Shown: positions 4,687-24,783 of the stretch, piece by piece | Layout of the letters: each line of letters starts with the position of its first letter | How positions within the stretch are numbered: the first letter of the stretch is position 1 | DNA from: Larkinella humicola | GTDB taxonomy: Bacteria; Bacteroidota; Bacteroidia; Cytophagales; Spirosomataceae | NCBI RefSeq assembly: GCF_008727875.1 | Contig: NZ_VTWS01000006.1 | Span: 124,001-188,000, forward strand | Direction of reading: 5' to 3' | Length of the DNA: 64,000 nucleotides | Notes under the pieces: model-generated | Seen by the model: the letters and a program-made list of their open reading frames with translations, nothing else | Databases searched by the model: none | Told to the model about the DNA's origin: nothing | Position numbers and translations under genes: made by a program

Positions 4687-7476
4687 ATGAGACTGCCCTT
4701 TTATCCGCTGCTCTTTTTTTGCCTGATTATTTTCCGGGCCTGGACCGCCGAACCGGTTCAGCTCACCCGGCTTCGGTGCGATTCCCGGGAGCATCCGCTC
4801 GGTGTCGAAAGCCGTCAGCCCCGGTTGAGCTGGCAGTTGGTGTCGGCGGTTCGGGGGCAAAAGCAAACCGCTTACCGGATTCTGGTGTCCGACCATCCAC
4901 AGACGCTGGCGGCTGGTCAGGGCAACCTCTGGGATTCGGGCAAACGCGTCTCCGACCAGTCGATTCAGGTGCCGTACGAAGGAAAACCGCTGTTGGCGAG
5001 CCAGTCGTATTACTGGAAAGTGCAAACCTGGGACAAAGACGGCCAACCGTCGGGTTGGAGTGCCCCCGCCACCTGGCAAATGGGTTTGCTGACCAAAGCC
5101 GACTGGGGCAAGGCGCAGTGGATTGCGCTGGAAGAACTGCCGGCATCGGAGCGGATTGTTCCGTTTGTCCACGACCCCAATGCAGCCAAACCGTTGGGAG
5201 ACCGGAAATCGGCCCAGAATGCGCTGCCCCAGTTCCGGAAAGAATTTCGGCTGGAAAAACCGCTGAAGCGAGCCACGGCTTTCATCTCCGGCCTGGGTCA
5301 TTACGAACTGAGCCTCAACGGGCAACGCGTGAAAGATCATTTCATCGATCCCGGCTGGACGAACTACGATCACTCCGCCCTGTATGCAACGTACGACGTA
5401 ACGACCGCGCTCAGAAGGGGCGCAAACGTATTGAGTGCGCTCCTCGGCAACGGTTTCTATAACATTCCCGTTGAACGCTACCGGAAAATTGTGGGCTCGT
5501 TTGGCTATCCAAAACTAATCTGCAAGCTGCACCTGGCATACGAAGACGGGACACATCAGGAGGTAGTTACCGATCAATCATGGAAAGTGACGCAAAGCCC
5601 GATCACCTATTCGAGCATTTACGGGGGTGAAGACTGGGATGCCACCCGAGAAATACCGGGCTGGATGGAGGCTGGTTTTGATGATACCGGCTGGCAAACT
5701 CCGCTCGTGGTTCAGGGATCGCCCCAACTGCGGTCGCAAACCGCACCGCCGGTCAAGATCATGGAAACCTTCAAACCGGTGCGGATCACGCAGCCCAAAG
5801 CCGGTATTTACGTGATCGATCTGGGGCAGAACATGTCTGGGATTCCGCAGATTTCGGTAACGGGAAAAACCGGTTCCATCATCAAAATAACGCCCGGCGA
5901 GTTGTTGGGTGACGATAGTCTGGTCACGCAGCAGTCCAGCGGCCAACCGCATTTTTACCGGTATACCCTCAAAGGAACCGGCACCGAAACCTGGCATCCG
6001 CGCTTCACCTATTACGGTTTCCGGTATCTGCAAATTGAAGGCGCGGTTCCCGCCCAGGGCCTGCTGAGCACGATCGCAATGCCCTCCGCCGATATTCCGG
6101 TTTTGAAAGCCGTCAAAGGACTGCACATTCGGGGTTCTGCCGAAACCGTCGGGGCGTTTTCGTGTTCAAACGAGTTGTTCAACCGCATCGACCGACTCAT
6201 CGACTGGGCCATCAAAAGCAACATGGTGAGCACGCTCACCGATTGCCCGCACCGCGAGAAACTGGGCTGGCTGGAGGAGACGCACCTGATGAGTGGTTCG
6301 GCCCGGTATACCTACGATCTGGCAACGCTGCTGCCGAAAATCATTCGGGATATGCAGTCGGCGCAGTTGGCCAACGGCCTCATTCCCGACATTGCCCCCG
6401 AGTATACCGCCTTCGCCAGCGGTTTTCGTGACTCCCCGGAATGGGGCAGCGCCGGGGTGATTCTGCCGTGGTATACTTACCAGTGGTACGGTGATAAAAG
6501 CATTCTGGTGGAAAGTTACGACATGATGAAAAAGTACGTGGCCTACCTGGGCACCAAAGCCAATAACCACATTCTGACCCACGGTTTGGGCGACTGGTGC
6601 GATCTGGGGCCTAAACCGCCGGGCGAATCGCAGTTGACGCCCAAGGGCATTACGGCCACAGCCACCTACTTTTACGACCTGACCATTCTGGAAAAAACCG
6701 CCCGTTTGCTGGGCAAAACCGCCGATGCCGATCGTTTTCAGCAATTGGCTCAGGCCGTTAAAAAGGCGTTCAACGAAACGTATTACGACGCCCAAAAAGG
6801 GCAGTATGGATCGGGGAGCCAGACGTCCAACGCCATGCCGATTTACATGAATCTGGTGACGCCCGACAACCAGGCCGCCGTGACAGCCAGTTTATTGAAA
6901 AACCTCAAAGACAACCATTACAGCCTGACGGCGGGCGACATCGGGTTCCGGTATTTGCTGCTGGCGCTGGGTCAGGTCGGCGCTTCGGACGCCATCTACG
7001 CCATGAACAACCGTGCCGATGTGCCGGGCTACGGTTACCAACTGGCCCACGGCGCCACCGCCCTGACCGAATCCTGGCCCGCCCTGCGGTTTGTCTCCAA
7101 CAACCACTTCATGCTCGGGCACCTCATGGAATGGCTTTACGGCGGCCTGGGCGGGATTCAGCAGGACGAAAACGTGCCGGGATTCAAAGCCATCGTGATC
7201 AAGCCCGAGGTCGTGGGAGACATCACCCACACCCGCGTCCGGTATCATTCGCCTTACGGCCCGATCCGGAGTGAATGGAAAAAAACCGGCACCCAACTGG
7301 AACTGATGGTGAGCATTCCGGCCAACACCACCGCAACGGTGTATCTCCCCACCGGCAATGCTGTTCTGGAAAGTGGCAAAGCCCTCGATCAGCAGAAAGA
7401 CATCAAGGTGTTACGAACGGAAGCCAACCAAACCGTCGTAGCTATTGGTTCAGGCAGTTATGTCTTTAAACTTTAA
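4687..7476 (+). CDS. Alpha-L-rhamnosidase, GH78
   Basis: The protein has 929 residues. The start at 4687 is chosen because MRLPFYPLLFFCLIIF begins a signal peptide ending at TAEP. The order is that of GH78: N-terminal beta domains starting VQLTRLRCDSREHPLG, a rhamnosidase N domain with FRKEFRLEKPLKRATAFISG, then the (alpha/alpha)6 barrel with DCPHREKLGW (D519-W528), the acidic motif carrying the proposed general acid, and a C-terminal beta-sandwich ending in the usual KVLRTEANQTVVAIGSGSY. It releases terminal alpha-L-rhamnose from plant or bacterial glycans, probably in the periplasm because no T9SS tail is present. It converges on susD-susC, so the three probably form a rhamnose-glycan utilization locus. 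Confidence 0.95.
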   Translation: MRLPFYPLLFFCLIIFRAWTAEPVQLTRLRCDSREHPLGVESRQPRLSWQLVSAVRGQKQTAYRILVSDHPQTLAAGQGNLWDSGKRVSDQSIQVPYEGKPLLASQSYYWKVQTWDKDGQPSGWSAPATWQMGLLTKADWGKAQWIALEELPASERIVPFVHDPNAAKPLGDRKSAQNALPQFRKEFRLEKPLKRATAFISGLGHYELSLNGQRVKDHFIDPGWTNYDHSALYATYDVTTALRRGANVLSALLGNGFYNIPVERYRKIVGSFGYPKLICKLHLAYEDGTHQEVVTDQSWKVTQSPITYSSIYGGEDWDATREIPGWMEAGFDDTGWQTPLVVQGSPQLRSQTAPPVKIMETFKPVRITQPKAGIYVIDLGQNMSGIPQISVTGKTGSIIKITPGELLGDDSLVTQQSSGQPHFYRYTLKGTGTETWHPRFTYYGFRYLQIEGAVPAQGLLSTIAMPSADIPVLKAVKGLHIRGSAETVGAFSCSNELFNRIDRLIDWAIKSNMVSTLTDCPHREKLGWLEETHLMSGSARYTYDLATLLPKIIRDMQSAQLANGLIPDIAPEYTAFASGFRDSPEWGSAGVILPWYTYQWYGDKSILVESYDMMKKYVAYLGTKANNHILTHGLGDWCDLGPKPPGESQLTPKGITATATYFYDLTILEKTARLLGKTADADRFQQLAQAVKKAFNETYYDAQKGQYGSGSQTSNAMPIYMNLVTPDNQAAVTASLLKNLKDNHYSLTAGDIGFRYLLLALGQVGASDAIYAMNNRADVPGYGYQLAHGATALTESWPALRFVSNNHFMLGHLMEWLYGGLGGIQQDENVPGFKAIVIKPEVVGDITHTRVRYHSPYGPIRSEWKKTGTQLELMVSIPANTTATVYLPTGNAVLESGKALDQQKDIKVLRTEANQTVVAIGSGSYVFKL

Positions 7477-7551
7477 ATAACGAATATTGAATGTCGAATA
7501 ACGAATATCGAAAGCCGGATCAATCACTTCGATATTCGTTATTCAATATTC
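7475..7551. repeat. Heptad-register hairpin element A
   Basis: The left arm is made of 7-nt units in phase (GAATATT at 7482, GAATGTC at 7489, then units at 7496 and 7503), the right arm of reverse-complement units (GATATTC at 7531, GTTATTC at 7538, AATATTC at 7545). Bases 7496-7512 pair perfectly with 7528-7544 (17 bp, 15-base loop). It fills the gap between the convergent rhamnosidase and susD genes and begins inside the rhamnosidase stop codon. It could act as a bidirectional terminator; see the finding on heptad hairpins. Confidence 0.85.
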
Positions 7552-7561
7552 CTTTGCTTTT

Positions 7562-9061
7562 TCACCACCCCGGATTCTGCGTCAGATTCGGATTGAGCTG
7601 GCGTTCTTTGGCGGGAATGGGAAACAGATAATGTTTCTTTTCATCGAAAGGACGACCTTTGGAGGTCAATTCCAGATACGCTTTTTTCCAGCGAACCAGG
7701 TCCCGCCAGCGGTGACCTTCCAGCCCAAGCTCCACCACCCGTTCGTGGGCGATCCACTCCATAAATGCGGTTTTCGACAAACCGGGGTCGAGTTCCTTCA
7801 AGCCCGCCCGTTTCCGAACGCGGTTGACGGCGGCATAGGCCTCGGCAGTCGGCCCGGAGGCTGAATTGGTGGCTTCGGCAAACATCAGCAGAACATCGGC
7901 AAAACGCAGCAGCCGGATGTTGACGTCCGACCCCGTCGTCCAGTCGAACTCGTTCCCGCCATCTTTCTGGTATTTTCGAACGGCAAAATCCGCCGGCAAA
8001 ACGTCGAACCAGGAGGTGTACTCCAGCACTTTGTAATAATCCAGCCCGTCGAATTTGCTCCCCTGTGGCCCAAAAACCGACGCCAGCAGACGCGTGTCGC
8101 CCACTTCAAACTGCTTGACATACCATTCCGACGGAATCACGTTGTTGTAGGCCCGGCCCCGAACGCCCATTTCGAGGGGCCGTAACCCGCCCGTTCCGCA
8201 TTCGTCACAGAACGCACCGGGATTGACCGTTGCCGAAAACTGGACTTCAAAAAGTGACTCCTTGTTGTTCTCATTGACATTCGTGTGGTTATCGCGGTAG
8301 TTCGGCACCAGATCGTAGGCGTTGGAGTCGATGATCTCCTTAAACAGTTTGGCTGCGGCCGCGTAATCGGTCTGGCTGTTGGTCAGGTTGGCCCGATACA
8401 GCAAGGCTTTGGCCCGGAACCCTTTGGCGGCTCCGCGCGTGGCCCGGCCAATTTCGTCGCCTTCATACAAAACCGGCAAGCGTTTTTCGGCTTCCTCGAA
8501 ATCTTTCAGAATGGCCGCATACACCTGCGGAACCGCAATCCGGGTCGGTTGCTTCTCTTCGGGTTTGCTCACATCGACTACTTTCAGAATCAGCGGCACA
8601 TCGCCGAAATTCGTCACCAGCGTGAAGTAATACATCGCCCGCAGAAAATACGCTTCGCCCAGCAACCGGCTCTTCTTTGCTTCGTTCATCGGAACGCCCG
8701 GAATGCGGGTGATGGCCAGATTAGCCCGGTAAATTCCCTGGTAACAACCGGTCCAGAGGAAATTGTATACTTCCGTAGTGGCATCGGCTTCGGCTTCGCG
8801 CATCAACACCAGACTCGGACTGGTCGACACCGTGGCCTCGGTTTCGTCCGACATCAGTTCCTGGGTCAAATGCATGATCTGGGAATACAGATCCGGCGAC
8901 GCCAGGGTCGCATAAGTCGCATTGACGGCCTTGAGTGCATCTTCTTCCGTTTTGTAATAGTTATCCGTCGTCAGCACATTCACATTCTGAACGTCCAGCG
9001 CCTTGTCGCTGCAACCAGCCACCAACCCGGCCACCAGCAAAAGCGTGCTTATCTTTTTCAT
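7562..9061 (-). CDS. SusD/RagB family nutrient-binding lipoprotein
   Basis: The protein has 499 residues and begins with a lipoprotein signal: MKKISTLLLVAGLVAGC, with lipid attachment at Cys17. It has the SusD-family TPR-helical fold signatures: LTTDNYYKTEEDALKAVNA near the start, YRANLAITRIPG with EAYFLRAMYYFTLVTNFGD near residue 130, and the C-terminal RVVELGLEGHRWRDLVRWK followed by HYLFPIPAKERQLNPNL. SusD proteins form the lid of the SusC transporter at the cell surface and bind glycan. It is co-transcribed after susC, separated by hairpin element B, and probably binds a rhamnose-containing oligosaccharide given the convergent GH78 gene. Confidence 0.97.
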   Translation of the reverse strand: MKKISTLLLVAGLVAGCSDKALDVQNVNVLTTDNYYKTEEDALKAVNATYATLASPDLYSQIMHLTQELMSDETEATVSTSPSLVLMREAEADATTEVYNFLWTGCYQGIYRANLAITRIPGVPMNEAKKSRLLGEAYFLRAMYYFTLVTNFGDVPLILKVVDVSKPEEKQPTRIAVPQVYAAILKDFEEAEKRLPVLYEGDEIGRATRGAAKGFRAKALLYRANLTNSQTDYAAAAKLFKEIIDSNAYDLVPNYRDNHTNVNENNKESLFEVQFSATVNPGAFCDECGTGGLRPLEMGVRGRAYNNVIPSEWYVKQFEVGDTRLLASVFGPQGSKFDGLDYYKVLEYTSWFDVLPADFAVRKYQKDGGNEFDWTTGSDVNIRLLRFADVLLMFAEATNSASGPTAEAYAAVNRVRKRAGLKELDPGLSKTAFMEWIAHERVVELGLEGHRWRDLVRWKKAYLELTSKGRPFDEKKHYLFPIPAKERQLNPNLTQNPGW

Positions 9062-9068
9062 ATGAACT

Positions 9069-9160
9069 CGGTTTTCAGTTCACGGTTTTCAGTTTACGGT
9101 GGGCTGGCGCGCGTACAGGTTGAATGCGTCAGCTCACCGTAAACTGAAAACCGTAAACCA
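9069..9160. repeat. Heptad-register hairpin element B, between susC and susD
   Basis: On the plus strand the units CGGTTTT (9069, 9083) and CAGTTCA / CAGTTTA (9076, 9090) alternate in a 14-bp double heptad; the other arm holds TAAACTG (9140) and AAAACCG (9147). Bases 9082-9101 pair perfectly with 9135-9154 (20 bp, 33-base loop). In the mRNA it directly follows the susC stop and ends about 20 bases before the susD ATG. Such a structure could set the SusC:SusD ratio or protect the mRNA; this is inference. Confidence 0.85.
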
Positions 9161-12022: not shown

Positions 12023-12105
12023 ATACCTGGACGGGTTAGAGGAGGTAATGCTGAAAGTTAACTAACTCTTCCGTATCAAGAATAATACCAATCCGAAAAA
12101 TAAAA

Positions 12106-12138
12106 AAGCCTGCGTACCCGTAAAAAGTACGCAGGCTT
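12106..12138 (-). terminator. Intrinsic terminator downstream of uxs
   Basis: AAGCCTGCGTAC at 12106-12117 pairs perfectly with 12127-12138 across a 9-base loop. Read on the minus strand, the stem is followed by a T-rich tract (TTTTTTATTTTT), so it ends transcription of the ugd-uxs unit before the susC promoter region. Confidence 0.85.
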
Positions 12139-12242
12139 CGTTTACCGACCGACTTTCTGCCCTTTTCAGAGAAACAGGCTACCCAAAACGGGCTGACTGT
12201 TACGGACTAAAGTTCGTTGTCACGGTAAAAATATTTGTCTGT

Positions 12243-13223
12243 TTATTTTTTCACAAACTCCCGGTGGTAGGCCGCTTTATACAATTCTTCTTCCGGCAGG
12301 CTGCGGAAGTAATCGTACGTAATCCGCAACCCTTCGGCCCGTGAAACCTTCGGCTCCCACCCCAAAATCTGCTGCGCCCGCGTAATGTCCGGACGGCGTT
12401 GTTTCGGGTCGTCGGTTGGCAACGGTTTAACGATCAGCTTCTGCTTGGTTCCCGTCAGTTTGATGATTTCTTCGCCAAATTCGCGGATGGTGATTTCGCC
12501 GGGGTTGCCGATGTTGACCGGATAGGCGTAGTCGCTCAGCAACAGCCGGTAGATGCCTTCAACCAGGTCATCGACGTAGCAGAACGAACGGGTTTGGCTA
12601 CCATCGCCGAACACCGTGAGGTCTTCACCGCGCAGGGCCTGGCCGATGAAAGCGGGCAAAACCCGGCCGTCGTTGAGTCGCATCCGGGGACCGTAGGTGT
12701 TGAAAATCCGCACAATCCGCGTTTCCAGACCGTGGTAGGTATGATACGCCATCGTGATCGCTTCCTGAAACCGCTTGGCTTCGTCGTATACCCCACGCGG
12801 ACCAACCGGGTTCACATTGCCCCAGTAATCCTCGTTTTGCGGGTGAACCGCCGGATCACCGTACACTTCCGAGGTGGAAGCGATCAGCACCCGGGCGTTT
12901 TTAACCCGCGCCAGTCCGAGGCAATTGTGAATGCCCAACGACCCGACTTTCAGCGTCTGGATCGGGATTTTCAGGTAATCGATCGGGCTGGCGGGCGACG
13001 CGAAATGGAGAATATAGTCCAGATCGCCCGAAACGTGGATGAATTTCGATACGTCGTGGTGATAGAACTCGAAGGTGGGCAGGTGGAACAGGTGTTCGAT
13101 GTTGCGAATGTCGCCCGTAATGAGGTTGTCCATCGCAATGACGTGGTAGCCCTCTTTGATAAACCGATCGCAGAGGTGCGACCCCAGGAAACCAGCCCCG
13201 CCTGTAATGAGTACGCGTTTCAT
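12243..13223 (-). CDS. uxs: UDP-glucuronate decarboxylase (UDP-xylose synthase)
   Basis: The protein has 326 residues of the extended short-chain dehydrogenase fold. The NAD motif GGAGFLGSH starts at Gly8; the catalytic set is TSE at 117-119 with YxxxK at Tyr146-Lys150 (VYDEAK). [16 protein letters not shown] and [15 protein letters not shown] are diagnostic for UDP-xylose synthases rather than for 4-epimerases. It converts UDP-glucuronate to UDP-xylose and CO2 with tightly bound NAD in the cytosol. It follows ugd by 33 bases on the same strand, so substrate maker and user are co-transcribed. The UDP-xylose product would feed cell-surface or exopolysaccharide synthesis. Confidence 0.96.
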
Positions 13224-13256
13224 AAATAGTTTTTCAGTTTTTTTTAGTTGATCCGT

Positions 13257-14588
13257 TTACGCACTTTGCGCGACTTCCGGCGTGACGGTTTCGCGCCCGA
13301 TGCTGTAATACGTATACCCGACTTCCTTCATCTGGTCGAGTTCGTAGACATTCCGACCATCGAAAATCAGCTTGTTTTTCAGCAACAGGTTCATTTTTCC
13401 AAAGTCCGGCGTGCGGAACAACGGCCACTCGGTCATGATCACCAGAGCATCGGCATCGTCCAGGGCAGCATACGACGTGTGGGCGTAGTTGATCTGATTG
13501 CCCAGAATATTCCGCACATTGTCCATCGCTTCGGGATCGTAAACCGTTACTTTGGCGCCTTCCTTCAGCAAGGCCCGGATGTTTTCCAGTGCCGGTGCTT
13601 CCCGGATGTCGTCGGTATACGGTTTGAACGCCAGCCCCCAGACGGCGATGGTTTTTCCTTTCAGATCCCCGTCGAAATGGCCCTTGATGATCGGCAGCAG
13701 CTTGCTTTTCTGCTTGGTGTTGACCTCCATCACCGACTTCAGAATTTTAAAATCGTAGTCGTATTCTTGTGCGGTTTTCGCCAGCGCCTGCACGTCTTTC
13801 GGAAAACAACTTCCGCCGTAGCCAATCCCGGCGAACAAGAACCGCTTGCCAATCCGGCTATCGGTTCCGATGCCCCGGCGAATGTCGTCGACGTTGGCAC
13901 CGGCTTTCTCGCACAGGTTGGCGATCTCGTTCATGAACGAAATTTTAACGGCCAGGAACGCATTGGCGGCATATTTGGTCATTTCGGCCGAACGCTCGTC
14001 CATGAAAATCACCGGGTTTCCCTGCCGAACGAGCGGGGCATACAGCTTATTGAGAACGGCTTTGGCTTTGTCTGATTTGGTTCCGATCACGACGCGATCC
14101 GGTTTCATGAAATCATCGACGGCAACGCCTTCCCGCAAAAATTCGGGGTTCGACACCACGTCGAAGTCGATTTTTGCGCCCCGCGAAATGTGAAGCCACA
14201 CCTTTTCGGCGGTTCCCACCGGCACCGTACTTTTGTCGACAATCACCGCGTATTGTTTCAGCAACGGACCCAGATCATCCGACACTTTCAGAATATATTT
14301 CAAATCGGCCGAACCGTCTTCACCCGGAGGTGTGGGCAACGCCAGGAAAATAACTTCTGCTCCTTCAATCCCTTCGGCCAGGTTGGTCGTAAATTTCAGG
14401 CGGCCTTCGGCGGTATTCCGGTTGAATAAAACATCCAGACCCGGTTCGTAAATCGGAATGATTCCGTTGTTCAGCTTTTCAACTTTACGCTCGTCGATGT
14501 CGACGCAGACGACCTGGTTTCCGGTTTCGGCAAAACAGGTCCCCGTAACGAGCCCGACATATCCGGTTCCAATAACGGCTAATTTCAT
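13257..14588 (-). CDS. ugd: UDP-glucose 6-dehydrogenase
   Basis: The protein has 443 residues. The N-terminal Rossmann domain begins MKLAVIGTGYVGLVTGTCF; the catalytic cysteine lies in GIGYGGSCFPKD (Cys261); the substrate lysine is in the ANAFLAVKISFMNEIA helix; and the C-terminal UDP-binding domain has VWGLAFKPYTDDIREAP. It oxidises UDP-glucose to UDP-glucuronate with two NAD. It is first in a two-gene operon with uxs. The 316-bp divergent gap upstream separates it from the acyl-CoA dehydrogenase gene and carries a TATTTTTG -7-like box on the minus strand (14671-14678 on the plus strand). Confidence 0.97.
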   Translation of the reverse strand: MKLAVIGTGYVGLVTGTCFAETGNQVVCVDIDERKVEKLNNGIIPIYEPGLDVLFNRNTAEGRLKFTTNLAEGIEGAEVIFLALPTPPGEDGSADLKYILKVSDDLGPLLKQYAVIVDKSTVPVGTAEKVWLHISRGAKIDFDVVSNPEFLREGVAVDDFMKPDRVVIGTKSDKAKAVLNKLYAPLVRQGNPVIFMDERSAEMTKYAANAFLAVKISFMNEIANLCEKAGANVDDIRRGIGTDSRIGKRFLFAGIGYGGSCFPKDVQALAKTAQEYDYDFKILKSVMEVNTKQKSKLLPIIKGHFDGDLKGKTIAVWGLAFKPYTDDIREAPALENIRALLKEGAKVTVYDPEAMDNVRNILGNQINYAHTSYAALDDADALVIMTEWPLFRTPDFGKMNLLLKNKLIFDGRNVYELDQMKEVGYTYYSIGRETVTPEVAQSA

Positions 14589-14904
14589 AGAGAAGTGATT
14601 GTATTTATGTTAAGATAGGTTGATAGAAGTCAACTGATTTGTACTTTTTGTATACCCTGGTTGCAGGACACAAAAATAGATTTTTTTACTTAATTCTGAT
14701 CGCTCCTCCCGGAATTTGTGATCCAGAGGTCGATAATCTCCGGGTATTGCGCTGGCTCCATGTCAGTTAGCCATCCGTTCAGACCACACGGTAAATTGCT
14801 AAACCCATTCCAGACGGATTTGCCAACCGGCTTGGGTCTGTCGATTTTTTTTTGTAAATTATTATTAAAATCATCGTAAAAGTGCCACACAGCATAGCTC
14901 GTTC
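14589..14904. other. Divergent intergenic region ugd / acyl-CoA dehydrogenase
   Basis: This stretch of 316 bases has no convincing gene. It is AT-rich at both ends, as expected for two divergent promoters. A minus-strand -7-like box (complement of CAAAAATA, 14671-14678) may serve ugd, and a T9G-then-AT-rich block (about 14845-14870) may serve the plus-strand gene. A 66-codon minus-strand frame in it lacks any family resemblance and was not called. Confidence 0.4.
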
Positions 14905-16059: not shown

Positions 16060-16096
16060 AAATGGCGGGAAACTTCCCCGCCATTTCTGCTTTTTT
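16058..16096 (+). terminator. Intrinsic terminator of acyl-CoA dehydrogenase gene
   Basis: A 12-bp perfect stem (16058-16069 with 16077-16088) with a 7-base loop is followed by GCTTTTTT. It overlaps the stop codon by two bases and ends the plus-strand transcript. Confidence 0.9.
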
Positions 16097-16113
16097 CACA
16101 ACTAAATCTACTC

Positions 16114-16314: not shown

Positions 16315-16448
16315 ATTGTCAGCTTGTTAAAAGTTTCCAACCTCTCTGCTAACTTTTTATTCAACAGAAAGTTCGAGTTATGGCATTAAAACTCTATTAA
16401 GTTTGATTTAAAAGAGGATTAAAGCGCAATTAGCAAAGCCCATTCTGG

Positions 16449-17591: not shown

Positions 17592-17605
17592 GAGTTGTTG
17601 TTTTT

Positions 17606-17690
17606 AGAGAAGTCAGAATTGAGACAAGAGAAGTTAGATTACCTAGCGGGTTCTCATTTTTTAGGTCTCACTTCTATCGTCTTTTTTCTA
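17606..17690. repeat. Heptad-register hairpin element E
   Basis: The left arm on the plus strand reads in 7-nt units from 17606 (AGAGAAG, TCAGAAT, then TGAGACA, AGAGAAG, TTAGATT); the right arm, 17651-17685, is in reverse-complement heptads (TTCTCAT, GTCTCAC among them). Pairing is imperfect, about two thirds of the positions. It fills the whole gap between two codirectional minus-strand genes and reaches into the stop codon of the upstream one. Its right arm is clearly related to that of element F. Confidence 0.75.
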
Positions 17691-18266
17691 GTTGAAGAAA
17701 ATCCTCGCGCCCAGGTGCAGGGCCTGGTGGGGTAGTAAAATTTCACGGAATGGCATTTCGCCAAAGAGTTCGTAGCGGGTGAATACCGTCGTTCGGTGGT
17801 GGAAACGGTAGCCCAGACCGGCATTGATGGTGGGCATGAATTTGAGTTGCGTCGCCGGGGCTTTGCGGTACTCGCCCGTGTTCGAATCCTGTGTATAGGA
17901 AGGTGAAACCGGTCGCACCAGCAAGGCACCGCCACCCACCAACGCGTCGGCATAAAACACCCCGACGTATTTCCGGAAACCGAATTCCGAGCTGACAAAT
18001 AAACCGGCTTGTACCCGCGGATGGCGGTAATAGCCCACGTTCAGGGTCTGGATGAGTTGTGAGCTGGGTCGGTTTCGGTAGAAAAGCTCGGTTCCGATTT
18101 TGAGGCCCAGGCCACCCGTCTGAAGGTGCCTGAACGTGGGCAGACTGATGGATTCGGAGAACAGACTGAGGGTGATGGGCAGACCGTTTCGGGTCGATTT
18201 GGGCTTTTGCGCCTTCACCGTCGTGACGACCAGCAGCATGACAAGGAAGACTTGCACTGTTTTCAT
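17688..18266 (-). CDS. Predicted outer-membrane beta-barrel protein
   Basis: The protein has 192 residues with a signal peptide (MKTVQVFLVMLLVVTTVKA). The mature part alternates hydrophobic and polar residues, with Gly/aromatic-rich strands (GGLGLKIGTELFY, AGLFVSSEFGFRKYVGVFY, INAGLGYRF, LHLGARIFFN), and ends in Phe-Asn. This is typical of an 8-stranded outer-membrane barrel, but no named family was recognised. It precedes the lipoprotein serine hydrolase on the same strand. The LytTR regulator gene lies upstream. The barrel prediction is from pattern only. Confidence 0.7.
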   Translation of the reverse strand: MKTVQVFLVMLLVVTTVKAQKPKSTRNGLPITLSLFSESISLPTFRHLQTGGLGLKIGTELFYRNRPSSQLIQTLNVGYYRHPRVQAGLFVSSEFGFRKYVGVFYADALVGGGALLVRPVSPSYTQDSNTGEYRKAPATQLKFMPTINAGLGYRFHHRTTVFTRYELFGEMPFREILLPHQALHLGARIFFN

Positions 18267-18412
18267 GGCATTGTTCAGCAGTTGTTGTTGGCTGCAAAAC
18301 TGGGCTTAAAAACGATATGAAGGCAGTTTTTGACCGCCCACCGGTCGGCGTTCCGGGCTGAATGGCCGAAATGAAAACGCGAATGGTGGATGCAGGCGCG
18401 GAGGTTTTGGGG

Positions 18413-19279
18413 TTACGATCCCATCCACTGCCGAAATTCGGCCACACGCCGTCGGCTAACGGCCACCTCTTCGGAATGGACGGGGTGAAGATGCAGCACC
18501 AACCGCCCCGAACCGTCGTTTTCGACTTTCCGGATGGCCTTTCGGTGGGCGATGAACTGGCGGCTGAGCCGAAAAAAAACGTCTGAAGGCAACCGCTCAC
18601 TGAGTTGTTCCAACGTGGCATCGACCGTAAAGGACTGGCTATCGACGGTTTTAACGATGCTGATTTCATTGGTAATAAAAATGTAGGCAATCTGCTCTAT
18701 TGAAACCGGAATGAACCCTTTTCCCTGGTTCACCAGCAAGGTTTTTAAGGCTGGATTGCGGTTTTCGGCGGATTCGGGCTGGGTTGCCGGTTCGGTCCGG
18801 ATTTCGGCCAGTTGCCGGCGCAATTCGGCGACGGTCTGGCGGTGGTAGGTTCGCATCCAGTACATGGTATAGGCCATGTGCAGGATCAGAATGAAAAGGA
18901 GTCCGATTGGTACATCATTGGAAATCGTGATCGACAAGTCGAACGGCGGGGGTCTTTTTAGAATAAATCGGTTGTAGATCAGGCTAAAAACGGCGATGAT
19001 AAACCCCGTTGAAGTGAAAGCCAGACCGCCCTGCGCCACCAGCCGTTGCAGCGGTTGGGTCGCCCAGGAATACCGTACGTCCATTTTTCGGATCAGCCAG
19101 CGGTTGAACTCCCAAAGAATGACGTTCACCCCCATGATGACAGCCACATCGAGGTAAAAGAGCGGATTCAGAAACAAATCGCCGAGGGGAGCCGGATCGC
19201 CGATGAACCGGAACAACACCGCCCAAATCGGGATGCCGATCAGGCGAACCCAGCGGTCGGGATAGTGAATAACAGGCAT
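18413..19279 (-). CDS. Membrane-bound LytTR family transcriptional regulator
   Basis: The protein has 288 residues. About four membrane segments fill the first half (LIGIPIWAVLFRF, FYLDVAVIMGVNVIL, GFIIAVFSLIYNRF, IGLLFILILHMAYTMYWM), a short coiled stretch follows (TVAELRRQLAEIRTE), and residues 185-288 are a LytTR DNA-binding domain with FIPVSIEQIAYIFI and FFRLSRQFIAHRKAIRKV. There is no receiver domain, so it is not a conventional response regulator: the signal would reach the DNA-binding domain from the membrane part directly. Likely targets are the downstream barrel protein and serine hydrolase genes on the same strand, which is inference from position. Confidence 0.88.
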   Translation of the reverse strand: MPVIHYPDRWVRLIGIPIWAVLFRFIGDPAPLGDLFLNPLFYLDVAVIMGVNVILWEFNRWLIRKMDVRYSWATQPLQRLVAQGGLAFTSTGFIIAVFSLIYNRFILKRPPPFDLSITISNDVPIGLLFILILHMAYTMYWMRTYHRQTVAELRRQLAEIRTEPATQPESAENRNPALKTLLVNQGKGFIPVSIEQIAYIFITNEISIVKTVDSQSFTVDATLEQLSERLPSDVFFRLSRQFIAHRKAIRKVENDGSGRLVLHLHPVHSEEVAVSRRRVAEFRQWMGS

Positions 19280-19457
19280 TTGAATTCAAAGTAGACTTGA
19301 CAGACTTCCCGTTGCCAATGGGACAACGCCCCTCCAGCGGCTGATTACTACCGCAAATTAATCTAATTTCTCCATCCAGCCCCACAACCTTTCATTTACG
19401 GTTTTTTCTGCCTATCATCACAGTACTTGGAGATACGCGTCTATTTTTCCGAGATTT

Positions 19458-19542
19458 AGTCAAGACAAAAGAAGTTAGACAAAAAAATAGAGACATTCCT
19501 GTCTTTTATCTCTTGTCTTACGTCTTACTTCTATCCTCTTTT
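19458..19542. repeat. Heptad-register hairpin element F
   Basis: The left arm from 19458 reads AGTCAAG, ACAAAAG, then AAGTTAG, ACAAAAA and AATAGAG in 7-nt steps; the right arm from 19501 reads GTCTTTT, ATCTCTT, then GTCTTAC twice. About three quarters of the arm positions pair. The right arm shares most of its bases with that of element E (ACTTCTATC core). It lies 24 bases before the paraslipin start in the gap divergent to the LytTR gene, so it cannot be a terminator of an adjacent gene end. Confidence 0.8.
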
Positions 19543-19565
19543 ATTCACTTAACCTTCACTCTCTT

Positions 19566-20483
19566 ATGGGATATGTTTTTTTAACCCTTGTCGTTCTGGC
19601 CCTTCTGGTGGTTTTCATGACGGTTAAGGTCGTGCCGCAGCAAACCGCCTACGTGGTGGAACGGCTGGGTAAATTTCTGGCGGTTCTGCAGCCGGGCATC
19701 ACCTTCATCATTCCTTTTTTCGACCGGGTTGCCTACAAGCACAGTTTAAAAGAAACCGCCCTCGATATTCCCGAACAAATCTGCATTACGCGCGACAACG
19801 TCCAGGTGCGCGTCGATGGCGTCATTTTTATTCAGATTGTCGATCCGCAGAAAGCGTCCTATGGAATTGCCGACTACCGGTTTGCGGTGATTCAGTTGTC
19901 GCAGACCACGATGCGAAGTGAGATGGGCAAAATCGAACTGGACAAGACGTTTGAAGAACGGACGACACTGAATCAAGCCGTGGTCCGGGCCATCGACGAA
20001 GCCGCCATTGGCTGGGGTGTCAAAGTGCTGCGCTACGAAATCAAGAACATTACGCCCCCCCAATCCGTTTTGAACGCGATGGAGAAACAGATGCAGGCCG
20101 AACGCGAAAAACGGGCGGTGATTCTGCAATCGGAAGGCGAAAAGCAATCGGCCATCAACATCGCCGAGGGGCAAAAACAGAAGGTTGTGCTCGAATCGGA
20201 AGGGGTGCGGCTGCGGCAAATCAACGAAGCGTCGGGTGAAGCCGAAGCCATCAAATCCATCGCCGATGCCACCGCCGAAAGCATCCGCAAAGTGGCGGCT
20301 GCCATCAACGATGAGGGCGGTATGGATGCCGTCCAACTGCGGGTGGCCGAACAACTGGTCGATCAGTTTGGCAACCTGGCCCGCACCAACAACACACTGA
20401 TTCTGCCCGCCAACTTCGGGGATCTGGCATCGATTATTTCAACCGCCATGACGGTGGTCAAACATCAGGATAAAAAATCATAA
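19566..20483 (+). CDS. SPFH/band 7 (paraslipin-type stomatin) membrane protein
   Basis: The protein has 305 residues. One N-terminal membrane segment (YVFLTLVVLALLVVFM) is followed by the SPFH domain (VPQQTAYVVERLGKF, ITFIIPFFDRVAYKHSLKE, RDNVQVRVDGVIFIQIVDP), then a long charged coiled coil with EKRAVILQSEGEKQSAINIA, and a C-terminal hydrophobic region. This is the paraslipin (SLP-2-like) branch. Such proteins oligomerise in membrane microdomains and recruit membrane proteases. It is followed after 4 bases by an NfeD gene, the classic bacterial stomatin operon partner. Confidence 0.95.
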   Translation: MGYVFLTLVVLALLVVFMTVKVVPQQTAYVVERLGKFLAVLQPGITFIIPFFDRVAYKHSLKETALDIPEQICITRDNVQVRVDGVIFIQIVDPQKASYGIADYRFAVIQLSQTTMRSEMGKIELDKTFEERTTLNQAVVRAIDEAAIGWGVKVLRYEIKNITPPQSVLNAMEKQMQAEREKRAVILQSEGEKQSAINIAEGQKQKVVLESEGVRLRQINEASGEAEAIKSIADATAESIRKVAAAINDEGGMDAVQLRVAEQLVDQFGNLARTNNTLILPANFGDLASIISTAMTVVKHQDKKS

Positions 20484-20487
20484 AGCG

Positions 20488-20946
20488 ATGGACTTCATCA
20501 CCTGGCCTCAGTTATGGGTCGTTCTGGGCATTCTGTTTTTGATTGCCGAGCTACTCAGTGTTTCGTTTGTCTTCGCCTTTCTCAGCGTTGGCGCGTTCGT
20601 TACAGCGCTGGTCACCTGGCTGGGCGTAACGCCGGAAGTCAGCGCCCAGTTGTTTGCGTTTGCGGCCATCACGCTGCTGACACTGGTCACGGGCCGGAAA
20701 CCGCTCCGGCGCTGGTTTGAATCGCGCACCCGAAAACAGGAATACGTCGAATCGGTGGGCGACAAAGCCACGGTTGTTGAAACCATCCCGGCTTCCGGCG
20801 AAGGACGAATTTTCTACCGGGGCACAGAATGGACGGCGGTTTCGGACAACGACGAGTCGATCATGGCGGGTCGGCCGGTAGTAATCAAGAGAATGGAAGG
20901 CAGCCGGGTTATTGTGGCGCAGGTTCCGGTGGAGAGTTTGCAGTAG
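20488..20946 (+). CDS. NfeD-like membrane protein
   Basis: The protein has 152 residues. Three membrane segments occupy residues 8-75 (LWVVLGILFLIAELLSVSFVF, LSVGAFVTALVTWLG, LFAFAAITLLTLV, the first shown broken by its turn), and the C-terminal part is an OB-fold NfeD soluble domain (VGDKATVVETIPASGEGR, with VVIKRMEGSRVIVAQ at the end). It is the short NfeD1b form, without the ClpP-like protease domain. It is translationally close to the paraslipin gene (4-bp gap) and is expected to act with it in the inner membrane; the exact biochemical role of NfeD is not settled. Confidence 0.93.
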   Translation: MDFITWPQLWVVLGILFLIAELLSVSFVFAFLSVGAFVTALVTWLGVTPEVSAQLFAFAAITLLTLVTGRKPLRRWFESRTRKQEYVESVGDKATVVETIPASGEGRIFYRGTEWTAVSDNDESIMAGRPVVIKRMEGSRVIVAQVPVESLQ

Positions 20947-20961
20947 AGAATCGTGTTCCCA

Positions 20962-21007
20962 AACCAAAACGACGCTAAGCCTCACCCGGCTTAGCGTCGT
21001 TTTGGTT
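20962..21007. terminator. Bidirectional intrinsic terminator between nfeD and pafA
   Basis: A perfect 20-bp stem, 20962-20981 with 20988-21007, with a 6-base loop, lies between convergent genes. T-rich (AAAAC/GTTTT) bases are part of the stem on both sides, so it can serve both strands. Confidence 0.92.
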
Positions 21008-21022
21008 GTTCCTGGTTCAATC

Positions 21023-22675
21023 TCACTTCATCGCTTCCGCCACCGGATCGCCAATGTTTCCGCTGGGTTCCAGAATGTGCAGGAGCGCCGAAACCGTGGA
21101 GGCAATGTCGGCAATGTGCGTCCGGCGGGTGGTTTCGCCGGGTTTGATGCCCCAGCCGTAAAAGACCAGTGGGACGTGCGTATCGTAGTTGTAGAGCGTT
21201 CCGTGCGAGGTGCCGCCCTTCCGGTAGCCTTCCAGCCAGCCGGGTTGCGTCACCAGATACAGGTCTCCGCTTCGCCGGGGGTTGTAGACATTCCGAAGCA
21301 AAGGCAACCAGTATTCCGGGACAGAGTTCGAGTTGATGTCGTGCAGGTTGAGCACGTTCTGAATGCCCGGATTTTTCAATAAGGCCATCCGCACCACTTC
21401 GGTAGCCTCGGACACTTTCACTTTCTTTTCCCGCAGTAGGTCGTGATTCAGATACACCTGCGCATTGGAATTGCCAACGACCCATTTTCCGGGGCCAAAC
21501 GCGTCCGTCAGGGCCTTGTCGGTGGCAGCACTGATGTCCTTTGCTTCCAGAAAATCACCCGGTAAGTTCAGGCTCTGCGAGTAGGCCGGGTTGTCGGCAG
21601 CACCGTGGTCGGCGGATAGAAACGTGAAATAATTTCCTTTCCCGACCTGCGCATCCAGCGCATTCAGCAGGTCCGCCATCACTTTGTCCAGGCGCAGGTA
21701 TTCATCCTCGATTTCAATGGAGGTCGGGCTGAACCGGTGACCAATGGCATCGGGCGACGAAAAACTGACGCAAAGGAAATCGGTTTCGTTGCCTTTTCCC
21801 ATATTTTCGCCTTTCAGAGCGGCTATGGCCATTTCTTTCGTCAATACATCGCCAAACGGGCTGGTCCGCAGGGCTTCGTATTTGCTGCCGAGCGACGCAA
21901 TGGCCTGGTGCGGAAACACGGCTTTGGGTTCTCCGGCCAGCGGGTTCTCAAACGGCGTGTCATCGGCGGTGCTTTCCGTATATTGATCGATCGGCAAGGT
22001 GGTTTCCCAGGTTTGTGTCAGGTATTTGTCCGACAGTTTGAGGGCGTTAAAGTCCTTCGCCCACTGAGGCTGTTCTTTCATATAAAATGTACTCGAAATC
22101 CAGCTTCCGTCTTTCGAGTCGAACCAGTAGGCGGCATTGGCGGCATGACCCGCGGGCAGAATGGCGCCCCGGTCTTTCATGGCAATGCCAATGACTTTCG
22201 AACGACCCTGTGTGGCCACTTTCAACTGATCCGTCACGGTCGTCACCAGCAGGTTGCGGGGAGACATTTTTCCAGCCGACGATGTATTTCCAACCGATCG
22301 AACCGTTGAATCTTCGACACAATATACCGTTCGTTGAGCGGCCCGGTCGTACCAGTCATTGCCCACAATACCGGAAATGGCCGGAGCCGAACCCGTGTAT
22401 ACGTGCGTGTGACCGGGGGCCGTAATGGTGGCCGCATAATGGTAGTGGTTATTGCGGGCATTAAAACCGTCCCGCATCATCCGTTTAAAACCGCCTTCGG
22501 AATATTTGTTGTAAAACCGGTACAAATAATCATACCGCATCTGGTCGACGATGATGCCAACCACCAGTTTCGGTCGGCTCAGGGAAGTTGAAGGGCTGGC
22601 TGCTTTTTTAGGAGCCGGTTGCGCAAACACCCATACCGGTGTAAGCAAAAATAACGCTAAACGGACTAGTTTCAT
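21023..22675 (-). CDS. pafA: PafA-type alkaline phosphatase
   Basis: The protein has 550 residues with a signal peptide (LALFLLTPVWVFA). It belongs to the alkaline phosphatase / phosphodiesterase superfamily, PafA branch: the nucleophile is a threonine (Thr85 in ATITAPGHT), Asn106 is in GNDWYD, and the KxR pair Lys167/Arg169 is in IAMKDRG. Thr-Asn spacing (21) equals that of Elizabethkingia PafA. Metal ligands are visible in IIVDQMRYD, SADHGAADN and SHGTLYNYD. PafA enzymes are phosphate-insensitive periplasmic phosphomonoesterases that release phosphate from sugar phosphates. The gene is divergent from crtW, with a TACTTTTG -7 box upstream on the minus strand. Confidence 0.93.
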   Translation of the reverse strand: MKLVRLALFLLTPVWVFAQPAPKKAASPSTSLSRPKLVVGIIVDQMRYDYLYRFYNKYSEGGFKRMMRDGFNARNNHYHYAATITAPGHTHVYTGSAPAISGIVGNDWYDRAAQRTVYCVEDSTVRSVGNTSSAGKMSPRNLLVTTVTDQLKVATQGRSKVIGIAMKDRGAILPAGHAANAAYWFDSKDGSWISSTFYMKEQPQWAKDFNALKLSDKYLTQTWETTLPIDQYTESTADDTPFENPLAGEPKAVFPHQAIASLGSKYEALRTSPFGDVLTKEMAIAALKGENMGKGNETDFLCVSFSSPDAIGHRFSPTSIEIEDEYLRLDKVMADLLNALDAQVGKGNYFTFLSADHGAADNPAYSQSLNLPGDFLEAKDISAATDKALTDAFGPGKWVVGNSNAQVYLNHDLLREKKVKVSEATEVVRMALLKNPGIQNVLNLHDINSNSVPEYWLPLLRNVYNPRRSGDLYLVTQPGWLEGYRKGGTSHGTLYNYDTHVPLVFYGWGIKPGETTRRTHIADIASTVSALLHILEPSGNIGDPVAEAMK

Positions 22676-22774
22676 GCCAATGGGAAGGGACTATGGAGAA
22701 TGAGTCGGGTTATAACCCCAAAAGTAATGAACATTTCTGGTACGCGGGTCGTTAGCCGGTAAATGAATTGTTAA
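22676..22774. promoter_or_regulatory. Divergent pafA / crtW promoter region with a perfect palindrome
   Basis: A 99-bp divergent gap. GGGTTATAACCC at 22706-22717 is a perfect 12-bp palindrome and abuts a minus-strand TACTTTTG (plus-strand 22718-22725) that fits the Bacteroidota -7 box for pafA, with about 43 bases to the ATG. A repressor bound to the palindrome would cover the start of the pafA transcript. The role is inference. Confidence 0.4.
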
Positions 22775-23512
22775 ATGGTCACTTCCGCAATTTCATTCAA
22801 ACCGACCCAAATCGGCAACCGGGGCCTTTATTTTGCTGCGGCCATTCTGCTCAGTTGGCTGGGCATGCTGGTTTTCCTGCTGAATTACCCGATCAACTGG
22901 CAGAATCCGCTGGTTTATGTTTTCGTGCTGGTTCAAACCCATCTTTATACCGGCGTTTTCATTACCGCCCACGATGCTATTCACGGCGTGGTGGCGCCCC
23001 ACAACAAGCGATTGAACAACGCCATCGGCTTTCTGTGTGCCACGCTGTTTGCTTTCAACAATTACAGCCAACTCAGCCGCAAACACCACCTGCACCACAA
23101 ACACTCGGCTACCCACGACGACCCCGACTACCACGATGGCAACCCCGGTTTTCTGGCCTGGTATTACAGTTTTCTGAAAGAATACATTTCGGTGCTCCAG
23201 ATCGTCCTGATGGCGGTTACCTACAATGCCCTGAAACTCTGGTTTCCGATGGAAAATCTGATCGCATTCTGGATGGTTCCGGCGGTGTTGAGCACGTTTC
23301 AGCTCTTTTATTTCGGCACCTATCGCCCCCACCGGGGCGAACACCACAACCCGCCCCACAACGCCCGCAGCCAGAAACGCAACCACGTTTTGGCTTTCCT
23401 GAGCTGCTACTTTTTCGGCTACCACGCCGAGCACCACGCCTGGCCGTATTTGCCCTGGTGGAAACTTCCGGAGGCTAGAGTGAAGAATGATGAGTTAAAA
23501 GTGATGAGTTAA
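22775..23512 (+). CDS. crtW: CrtW-type beta-carotene ketolase (fatty acid desaturase superfamily)
   Basis: The protein has 245 residues. It is an integral di-iron enzyme with the CrtW histidine boxes: HDAIHG near residue 70, RKHHLHHKHS with DPDYHDG near 107-125, FGTYRPHRGEHH near 190 and YHAEHHAWPYLPWWKLP near 220. CrtW adds 4-keto groups to beta-ionone rings (echinenone, canthaxanthin, astaxanthin). Several hydrophobic segments lie between the boxes. The natural family end is at WWKLPEAR; the last ten residues (VKNDELKVMS) and the stop are encoded by hairpin element G. It converges on a polyprenyl diphosphate synthase gene. A related desaturase role is possible but less likely. Confidence 0.87.
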   Translation: MVTSAISFKPTQIGNRGLYFAAAILLSWLGMLVFLLNYPINWQNPLVYVFVLVQTHLYTGVFITAHDAIHGVVAPHNKRLNNAIGFLCATLFAFNNYSQLSRKHHLHHKHSATHDDPDYHDGNPGFLAWYYSFLKEYISVLQIVLMAVTYNALKLWFPMENLIAFWMVPAVLSTFQLFYFGTYRPHRGEHHNPPHNARSQKRNHVLAFLSCYFFGYHAEHHAWPYLPWWKLPEARVKNDELKVMS

Positions 23513-23587
23513 AATCGTATTCAAGCTATTGGCCTATACGAATATGCGTCAGCCAACTCTACATTGTTAACTCTTCACTATTTACTC
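23477..23587. repeat. Heptad-register hairpin element G, overlapping both flanking gene ends
   Basis: The left arm from 23477 reads AGAGTGA, AGAATGA, then TGAGTTA, AAAGTGA, TGAGTTA in 7-nt steps; the right arm from 23553 reads CCAACTC, TACATTG, then TTAACTC, TTCACTA, TTTACTC. The best stem register pairs 23489-23510 with 23555-23576, 17 of 22 positions. The left arm codes the C-terminal tail and stop of crtW; the right arm holds the stop of the polyprenyl synthase gene. Confidence 0.8.
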
Positions 23588-24555
23588 CGCTCAATCGTAT
23601 ATTGCACCAACTGCTCCAGAGAGGTGCGGTAGCGGGAGTCGGGCAGGGTGAACAGCAGGGCTTTGGCTTCGTCGACGTAGCGGGTCATGATGGTGGTGGC
23701 GTACTGAATACCCCCCGATTTCTTCACAAAATCAATGACTTCGGCGACGCGTTTCGGATTTTCGCTTTCATTCTTGACGATGTTGATCATCCGCCGTTTT
23801 TCAACCCATTTCGCGTTGTTCAACGCATAAATCAACGGCAGCGTCATTTTCTTTTCCTTGATGTCGATGCCGAGCGGTTTGCCCACTTCTTCTTCCCCGT
23901 AATCGAACAAATCGTCTTTGATCTGGAAAGCAATTCCCACTTTTTCGCCAAACATCCGGGCGGTTTCGATCATTTCGGCGCTGGCATCGACGGAGCGGGC
24001 ACCCACCGCGCAACAGGCCGAAATCAGCGATGCAGTTTTCTGGCGGATGATTTCGTAATAAACCGCTTCCGTAATGTCCAGCCGCCGGGCTTTTTCGATC
24101 TGGAGCAATTCGCCCTCACTGATTTCGCGAACCGCCTTCGAGACAATTTTCAGCAAATCATAATCGCCGTTGTCGACCGACAGCAGCAGCCCGCGGGAGA
24201 GCAGGTAGTCGCCCACCAGCACGGCAATTTTGTTCTTCCACAGAGCGTTGATGGAGAAGAAACCACGACGATAATTAGAGTCATCGACCACATCGTCGTG
24301 AACGAGGGTCGCCGTGTGCAGCAGTTCGATGAGGGCCGCGCCCCGGTGTGTCGATTCGGTGACGGTTCCACAGACACCGGCCGTCAGAAAAACAAACATG
24401 GGCCGGAGCTGTTTGCCCTTTCGGCGCACGATGTAGTTCATGATCTGGTCCAGAAGCATGACTTCGCTTTTCATAAACTGCCGGAATTTGTGCTCAAATG
24501 TTTCCATTTCGGCAGCAATCGGCGCTTGTATGTCCCGGATCGATAGTGGCATCAT
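23578..24555 (-). CDS. Polyprenyl diphosphate synthase (trans-isoprenyl synthase)
   Basis: The protein has 325 residues of the all-alpha trans-prenyltransferase fold. The first aspartate motif is LVHDDVVDDSNYRRG, the second FQIKDDLFDYGEEEVGKP; GKQLRPMFVFLTAG carries the conserved Lys/Arg that bind diphosphate. The residues before the first DDxxD are LHTATLV, small ones that suggest a long-chain product (about C35-C45, as for the quinone side chain) rather than C15. It extends an allylic diphosphate with isopentenyl diphosphate in the cytosol. It probably makes the menaquinone side chain; the neighbouring crtW makes a role in carotenoid precursors possible but less likely. Confidence 0.93.
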   Translation of the reverse strand: MMPLSIRDIQAPIAAEMETFEHKFRQFMKSEVMLLDQIMNYIVRRKGKQLRPMFVFLTAGVCGTVTESTHRGAALIELLHTATLVHDDVVDDSNYRRGFFSINALWKNKIAVLVGDYLLSRGLLLSVDNGDYDLLKIVSKAVREISEGELLQIEKARRLDITEAVYYEIIRQKTASLISACCAVGARSVDASAEMIETARMFGEKVGIAFQIKDDLFDYGEEEVGKPLGIDIKEKKMTLPLIYALNNAKWVEKRRMINIVKNESENPKRVAEVIDFVKKSGGIQYATTIMTRYVDEAKALLFTLPDSRYRTSLEQLVQYTIERSK

Positions 24556-24596
24556 TCACATCAGTTCATCGGGTTGGATGAACCGCATTCAGGGCG

Positions 24597-24630
24597 CAAG
24601 TATACCACTCAAACGCGAGATCAGGACAAA
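24597..24630 (-). promoter_or_regulatory. Candidate promoter of polyprenyl synthase gene
   Basis: On the minus strand TATACTTG (plus 24597-24604) differs by one base from TAnnTTTG and is preceded, 22 bases upstream, by a TTTTG box (plus 24626-24630), within the spacing known for Bacteroidota promoters. The distance to the start codon is about 42 bases. It is a prediction from motif only. Confidence 0.35.
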
Positions 24631-24695
24631 ACTTCGCAAAAACTTCGCGCCGGTTGCAAGATTGGCTCTAAAAATGTAACGTTACGGTTAGTAAA

Positions 24696-24783
24696 AATGA
24701 TGAATGATGGATGATGAATGATGGATGAAAAACTTCTCTCATTCCTGTTTGCATTCATCGTTCATCGTCCATCATTCATCATT
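24696..24783. repeat. Heptad-register hairpin element H, in the patatin leader
   Basis: The left arm is four 7-nt units from 24699 (GATGAAT, GATGGAT, repeated); the right arm from 24753 holds ATTCATC, GTTCATC, then GTCCATC and ATTCATC. 24696-24711 pairs perfectly with 24768-24783, and as plus-strand RNA the stem runs on to 32 bp with three G-U pairs. The stem ends six bases before the patatin ATG at 24790. Confidence 0.9.

Follow-up and report, generated by a model that had tools for sequence, protein, structure and literature searches.

A 64,000-nucleotide stretch of the Larkinella humicola genome (hereafter the window; C17:124001-188000, where C17 is contig NZ_VTWS01000006.1 of a 7.86-Mb genome in 20 contigs) carries six intergenic hairpins, E1 to E6, whose arms consist of consecutive, degenerate 7-nt words. 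Comparing these hairpins with the rest of the genome and with eight other genomes of the same genus (G001-G008), we found that their class has arms of period 7, that part of the elements fall into families, that they mostly stand directly behind stop codons, and that close relatives often carry a quite different hairpin in the exact same position; a slot thus persists through changes of its sequence. The usual picture of palindromes in bacterial intergenic DNA is one of conserved terminators or of scattered repeats. In Larkinella it is the position that is conserved, whereas the sequence changes within about 9% divergence and between unrelated families of repeats. With roughly even confidence, we explain the six hairpins as members of several small palindromic-repeat families, REPIN- or MITE-like, that recolonise conserved 3'-end slots. 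All six were present where the original prediction had placed intergenic hairpins with heptad arms (lag-7 p 0.0005-0.005), though the stems of E3 and E4 are broken.

Heptad hairpins as a genome-wide class

The genome-wide sample consisted of the first 400 kb each of contigs C17, C11 and C15 (1.2 of 7.86 Mb), picked by position, and inverted repeats were collected by an ungapped scan at a score of at least 13 in this sample and of at least 12 in the window. The scan returned 265 inverted repeats versus 10 in one dinucleotide shuffle. Identity within their arms at a lag of 7 nt was 0.374 versus 0.282 in permutations (z 17.5) and at lag 14 it was 0.377 (z 14.0), while all other lags from 2 to 15 gave z values of at most 2.0. 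The lag-7 and lag-14 values were reached by none of 1000 permutations, and the lag-7 excess was confined to arms of at least 18 nt. It was also found in stretches of G001, G002 and G006 (z 5.1, 10.7 and 5.8, respectively), the last showing an additional excess at lag 8 (z 3.7). Heptad-armed hairpins form a genome-wide class, and the excess of period 7 over shuffled DNA that the original prediction had expected in the genome and its relatives was observed. In 50 kb of Escherichia coli we found one inverted repeat, which is not enough to serve as a control for periodicity.

We called an element heptad when its lag-7 identity was at least 0.5 and its arm at least 16 nt. The 66 such elements of the sample have a median span of 90 bp, with 80% of them within 65-104, and their words form the sets AGTTAAG/AGTGAAG, CGGTTTA/CGGTATT/CAGTTTT, GATGAAT, ATGTAAA/ATGATGA, AGACAAG and GAATATC. 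Best cover times identity to another element of the sample was at least 64 for 46 of the 66, and for 72 of 160 other hairpins with arms of at least 16. A CGGTTTA element used as query had relatives in at least 40 places genome-wide, the best matching at 92% over query bases 1-85 of 86, and an ATGTAAA element in G006 likewise in at least 40 places, with a best match of 86%; for both queries this number is a floor, as 40 candidates were scored. Counting the places in the sample with at least 70% cover, the element itself included, we obtained 13 for E2, six for E6, two for E5 and one each for E1, E3 and E4. The earlier view that the architecture and not the sequence is conserved, unlike in normal repeats, was not supported: the CGGTTTA and ATGTAAA types form dispersed families, although E1, E3 and E4 have no further full-length copy in the sample. 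An inner core, GCTGACGC/GCGTCAGC, is present on one or both sides in 19 of the 265 elements and accompanies arms of differing sets (nine CGGTTTA, six AGTTAAG, four other). In some elements the paired inner core includes the string GCGTC, in contrast to the GTAG or CGTC tag of REP elements, which stands unpaired at one end. A CGGTTTA hairpin at C11:293363-293481, with GAATATT-type heptads running through its loop as a single arm, may represent a nested intermediate.

The arms also differ in composition. In the 37 heptad elements between co-directional genes, 267 G-C pairs stand against 88 C-G pairs, the first arm being the G-bearing one on both strands. This is a better description than the purine-rich words on one arm of the original prediction, E2 being T/G-rich. 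Seven nucleotides are not a universal unit either: a period-8 family shares the same slots, its word set GTGATTGA occupying the E2 slot in G003 and G006.

The best named hits of a protein from the window were in Rudanella, Spirosoma and Fibrisoma, consistent with membership of the Spirosomataceae. Among 80 named loci from Cytophagales outside the genus and from their relatives, 12 carried at least one hairpin with a best lag of 7 or 8 and an identity of at least 0.55, ten of them with lag 7. These hairpins use other words and come from Dyadobacter, Hymenobacter, Pontibacter, Arcicella and a metagenome-assembled genome of Chitinophagaceae, among others. Over all 80 loci, mean lag-7 identity (0.301) was no outlier next to lag 3 (0.303) and lag 14 (0.306), indicating that most of those stretches are poor in heptad hairpins and that a phylum-wide claim rests on single hairpins only.

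Position behind stop codons and exchange at the same slot

All gap and stop-codon assignments derive from the gene calls of an in-house dicodon finder. By these calls, each of the 66 heptad elements is intergenic, although some overlap a stop codon; 37 are in co-directional, 23 in convergent and six in divergent gaps, of which 413, 104 and 156, respectively, are at least 60 nt long. For 35 of the 37 elements between co-directional genes the stop is closer than the following start; the median distance is 5 nt to the stop codon and 33 nt to the start, and 32 of 37 fall into the interval from -25 to +15 nt around the stop, where uniform placement in the same gaps put 17.8 on average and 25 at most in 2000 draws. 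Heptad hairpins are mostly found directly behind stop codons, E4 and E6 being exceptions to this rule because they lie in divergent gaps. Terminator-like hairpins sit farther from the stop (4 of 15 at -25 to +15 nt, median 32 nt). Among 52 convergent gaps of 70-150 nt, 14 carry a heptad hairpin, ten a short one and none both, suggesting that the two kinds exclude each other there; space alone may explain this. As a cause of the stop-codon position, microhomology of the words with native gene ends was kept as no more than a lead: the stop and the two preceding codons were weakly positive at lag 7 (z 2.3, 2.1 and 2.8), and some other lags reached z 2-3 as well.

Exchange was scored against G002 and G006, both about 91.4% identical to this genome in aligned blocks of at least 300 bp. 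C17:1-400k contains 70 inverted repeats, 44 of which map to G006 and 44 to G002, and a site was considered kept when its local alignment score was at least 0.5 per element base. In G006, four of 13 heptad sites were kept, eight carried another hairpin and one carried none; in G002, the corresponding numbers were 11, six and one of 18. Another hairpin was therefore present at 14 of the 16 sites not kept, compared with 14 of 103 matched hairpin-free co-directional or convergent gaps of 60-400 nt (10 of 48 in G006, Fisher p 2e-4; 4 of 55 in G002, p 2e-5), the gap-based count being restricted to mapped gaps and some slots entering both comparisons. When the cut-off for kept sites was varied from 0.3 to 0.6, the exchanged sites numbered 6-9 of 13 in G006 and 4-7 of 18 in G002. 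Reading the words by eye, we assigned six of the eight exchanges in G006 and three of the six in G002 to a different word family, the rest showing other words of the same family.

Three slots with closely aligned flanks illustrate the exchange. At C17:91364 this genome and G002 carry AGTTAAG words and G006 carries GATGAAT; at C17:95643 CGGTTTA in this genome is replaced by ATGTAAA in G002 and G006; and at C17:133078, which is E2, CGGTTTT in this genome and G002 is replaced by 8-nt words in G006. The expectation that orthologous gaps of relatives would carry other heptad words at the same place was borne out, the first two slots being examples. Within the window, the gap at 9061-9160 holds heptad or octad hairpins in five of seven mapped genomes and is reduced to 11 nt in G001 and G004; the gap at 23512-23577 holds a heptad hairpin in seven of nine genomes, with three kinds of words; and the gap at 20946-21022 holds a hairpin in all eight mapped genomes, a heptad one in G008 only. 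No hairpin was found at 14588-14904 in any of eight genomes. The gap at 13223-13256 is short and empty in this genome, G002 and G006, and is occupied in G001, G003, G005 and G008.

At C17:294422 and C17:351332 both arms changed in concert around a retained loop. At the former (C17:294422-294541) both arms of a CGGTTTA hairpin contain a GCCGGGCCGTCGCTAC block that is absent from G002, where the loop is nearly the same, and the counterpart in G006 is a short gap with one word-like remnant. A long hairpin at window positions 30679-30773 likewise has arms that differ among this genome, G002 and G006 around a nearly constant loop. Palindromes of a GC-rich family, CCCCTAAATCCCCTAAAGGGG, are found at several gaps in one relative but not in another, and also at C17:215685; one such palindrome fills the E1 slot in G006.

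Maintenance of pairing and rival explanations

Kept heptad elements differed between genomes by 6.7% and 7.4% in their arms and by 8.3% in their loops (15 kept comparisons), and short hairpins by 5.9% and 5.1% in their arms and by 22.9% in their loops (14 comparisons); background divergence was 10.3% in hairpin-free gaps and 17.2% at third codon positions. On the transcript strand, mismatches showed no excess of G-U over A-C in the co-directional gaps of this genome (27:27 in heptad elements, 82:77 in all hairpins) nor after adding G002 and G006 (44:50 and 124:115), whereas the stems of four tRNAs, a small control, gave 7:0. Given that kept arms are barely better conserved than loops and that mismatches lack a G-U bias, RNA-level selection is not visible, and RNA-level upkeep of the pairing was rejected. 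Changes on both sides that preserved a Watson-Crick pair numbered three in heptad elements (0.7 expected) and 20 in other long hairpins (1.5 expected); frequent compensatory evolution within kept heptad elements was hardly seen and was likewise discarded. Between exchanges the pairing is not visibly maintained by RNA selection, although weak selection may hide in long stems. It is renewed upon exchange of the whole element and, in some cases, when the two arms change around an unaltered loop.

The main rival of recolonising repeat families, possible but clearly less probable, is that any palindrome suffices as a functional 3'-end hairpin, for termination, 3' protection or a ribosome effect at the stop, so that the sequence turns over while the slot persists. 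The proximity to stop codons argues for such a role, as do the slots occupied genus-wide by unrelated sequences (23512-23577 and 20946-21022), the gap at 14588-14904 that lacks a hairpin in eight of eight genomes, and the predicted stability on the transcript strand, with a median of -43.7 kcal/mol for the 37 heptad elements (-44.8 for other hairpins). It is weakened by the equal frequency of G-U and A-C mismatches in heptads, by kept heptad arms that change about as their loops do while short hairpins conserve arms and not loops, and by slots that are not always filled, such as 13223-13256; a T-run (at least six T in the next 10 nt) is rare in heptads (4 of 37) but equally rare in other hairpins (14 of 99). 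Since long stems may tolerate single changes, the mismatch and conservation tests are not decisive against a 3'-end role. Intrinsic terminators also place a hairpin directly behind the gene, and hairpins of other kinds are common behind genes here too; that the heptad elements reflect chance or ordinary terminators is nevertheless extremely improbable. Shuffles and permutations rule out a chance origin, and the Larkinella heptads differ from terminators in that most lack a T-run, their arms are long and built of heptads, and their stems show no extra conservation, being barely better conserved than the loops.

Alternatively, each hairpin could have been born locally by 7-nt slippage and template switching, without dispersal. 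This is consistent with the missing full-length copies of E1, E3 and E4, with the concerted arm changes around a kept loop, and with the argument in the available part of PMC8794818 that template switching can create and maintain hairpins; we consider it unlikely in view of identical word sets at unrelated loci, of the core GCTGACGC on at least one side of 19 of 265 elements, and of the full-length relatives of the CGGTTTA and ATGTAAA elements. A separate and doubtful reading regards the slots as fixed hairpin sites at gene ends that take in different palindromic families, where a dedicated mechanism would recognise an existing hairpin or the stop-codon end and write new arms of 7- or 8-nt words, replacing the occupant. 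A heptad-stepping machinery, in which a protein or short template adds or reads 7-nt words, is very unlikely. It would account for period 7 across unrelated word families and for heptads with other words in other Bacteroidota genera (10 of 80 loci); slippage, however, is the simpler account of the 7-nt bias, no candidate gene turned up, although no search was aimed at one, and the occupation of the same slots by period-8 elements argues against a strict 7-nt reader. The earlier suggestion of a protein reading 7-nt steps was supported by no result. Its companion, strand slippage in 7-nt steps, may contribute: Mrazek et al. 2007, as relayed in PMC4679880, found that heptanucleotides outnumbered other long simple repeats in most genomes concerned, and proposed polymerase slippage.

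We thus favor small palindromic-repeat families that recolonise slots at gene ends. Their arms are degenerate tandem words of 7 nt, or of 8 nt in some families, and the occupant of a slot is often exchanged whole, arms and loop, in many cases for another word family, leaving the flanking genes unchanged. New occupants may be copies of elements at other places in the genome, made by way of a hairpin or single-stranded intermediate, the 7-nt words may be born by replication slippage, and the arms would be made alike through template switching within the hairpin. The slot effect could arise from selection for any hairpin at gene ends, or because existing hairpins or stop codons are preferred as insertion sites. 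Several results weigh against this explanation. The slot effect is too strong for free transposition, and by eye no target-site duplication was recognised in presence/absence pairs, among which clean empty sites are few. E1, E3 and E4 have no further full-length copy in the 1.2-Mb sample, and none of the seven Y1_Tnp loci of this genome carries a heptad hairpin within the 3.1-3.3 kb examined around each. Other long hairpins also lie near the stop (26 of 44 at -25 to +15 nt, median 11 nt), and exchange occurs in 10 of 40 comparisons for other long hairpins and 6 of 25 for short ones, against 14 of 31 for heptads; it is therefore commonest in heptads and not confined to them. Finally, changes in kept heptad stems are largely one-sided (51 single and 4 double among 426 pairs, after exclusion of 56 gapped ones), indicating that homogenisation of the arms is infrequent between exchanges. 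Larkinella makes three questions testable: how small palindromes come to stand behind genes and replace each other there, whether just any hairpin will do at a gene end, and why words of 7 nt recur in bacteria as distant as Xanthomonas, cyanobacteria, Beggiatoaceae and Bacteroidota.

Known repeats and the hairpins of the window

The closest precedent is the GGGAATC heptamer repeat of Xanthomonas, which occurs as convergent (inverted) pairs in 70 and 75 cases and is under-represented between divergent genes (PMC4692102). It has in common with the Larkinella elements the 7-nt tandem words, the inverted pairs and the rarity between divergent genes, and the convergent pairs of heptamer words near stop codons in Larkinella resemble its inverted heptamers. 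The GGGGA(T/C)T repeats of Nostoc form few inverted pairs. Both systems have a single G-tract word type per genome and were studied as G-quadruplexes, whereas the heptad words of E1-E6, as read in the sequence, contain no GGG run; the portion of PMC4692102 available to us describes no exchange of word families in either. TAACTGA direct repeats, known from Beggiatoaceae, cyanobacteria and some Bacteroidetes, consist of a word that gives stop codons in all three frames (PMC4679880). They share with our elements the intergenic heptamers and, in some sets, a splitting by related 7-bp words. They differ in being direct (one indirect), in using a single word and in standing, in the type genome, mostly a short way before start codons, according to the same text. 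Given that the Larkinella words differ and their position is on the stop side, membership in this group was rejected. The CAGTTAT arms of an Arcicella locus (L238) correspond to the reported TAACTGA word on the opposite strand.

REPINs and REP elements with their RAYT transposases are small dispersed extragenic palindromes that form hairpins (PMC3116915), and 260 of 496 E. coli REPs in an earlier study and 446 of 4,072 in a newer one lie within 15 nt of a stop codon, as given in PMC12306157. The Larkinella elements are likewise extragenic inverted pairs that form hairpins, 66 of 66 lying in gaps; a heptad build is not mentioned in the available portions of three REPIN accounts (PMC3116915, PMC12306157, PMC3733652). 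Closely similar dispersed copies, also typical of REPINs, exist for the E2 and E6 families and for an ATGTAAA family, while E1, E3 and E4 have none in the 1.2-Mb sample. Mobilisation by RAYT was rejected, as no heptad hairpin lies in the 3.1-3.3 kb around each of the seven Y1_Tnp loci. Non-heptad hairpins are present at most of these loci (L159-L165), several of which have their own GC-rich hairpins nearby, for example GGTCGCTAACGCGACC at L162. In the parts of the open-licence full-text literature available to us, we found no description of a word-family swap at one slot. Rfam gave no match in the window at the gathering score, and a known RNA family was excluded as the identity of the hairpins.

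The six hairpins of the window differ in quality. E1 (7478..7551; GAATATT/TAACGAA-type) lies between a plus-strand alpha-L-rhamnosidase gene and a convergent minus-strand SusD gene, and E2 (9066..9159; CGGTTTT/CAGTTTA-type, with inner core GGCTG(A/G)CGC) takes up nearly the entire gap between a TonB-plug (SusC-like) and a SusD gene, genes here and below being named from Pfam. E3 (17609..17690) and E4 (19460..19545) are imperfect hairpins of the AGANNNN type (AGACAAG and AGAAGTT in E3), E3 between co-directional minus-strand genes and E4 upstream of an SPFH/Band 7 gene in a gap between divergent genes, a context shared by few elements. E5 (23483..23588; TGAGTTA/AAAGTGA-type) separates convergent desaturase and polyprenyl synthetase genes, its left arm containing the end of a plus-strand open reading frame at 23512. 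E6 (24693..24786; GATGAAT/GATGGAT-type) lies in a divergent gap and ends immediately ahead of a patatin gene's start codon. With arm limits placed by eye, lag-7 identity from E1 to E6 was 0.78, 0.63, 0.51, 0.54, 0.53 and 0.79, and within-arm shuffles gave p values of 0.0005, 0.0005, 0.0015, 0.005, 0.0025 and 0.0005 in the same order. E2 (predicted folding energy -55.1 kcal/mol), E6 (-51.2) and E1 (-25.3) are strong hairpins, E5 (-23.4) is moderate, and E3 (-21.9) and E4 (-17.9) are imperfect with broken stems. E1, E2, E5 and E6 are among the 17 inverted repeats of the window, and Tandem Repeats Finder reported period 7 or 14 in these four and in neither E3 nor E4. The window scan did not recover E3 and E4 because their stems are broken; regular hairpins that pass the scan stand at the E3 slot in G006 and at the E4 slot in G002, G005 and G006.

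Elsewhere in the window, a long hairpin at 56049-56215, separate from the present finding, carries CCCCGGATGCCATCCGGGG and CATCATTAG in its arms, and an imperfect tandem repeat of 21/42/63 bp at 63127-63283 lies within a minus-strand open frame (61921-63990).

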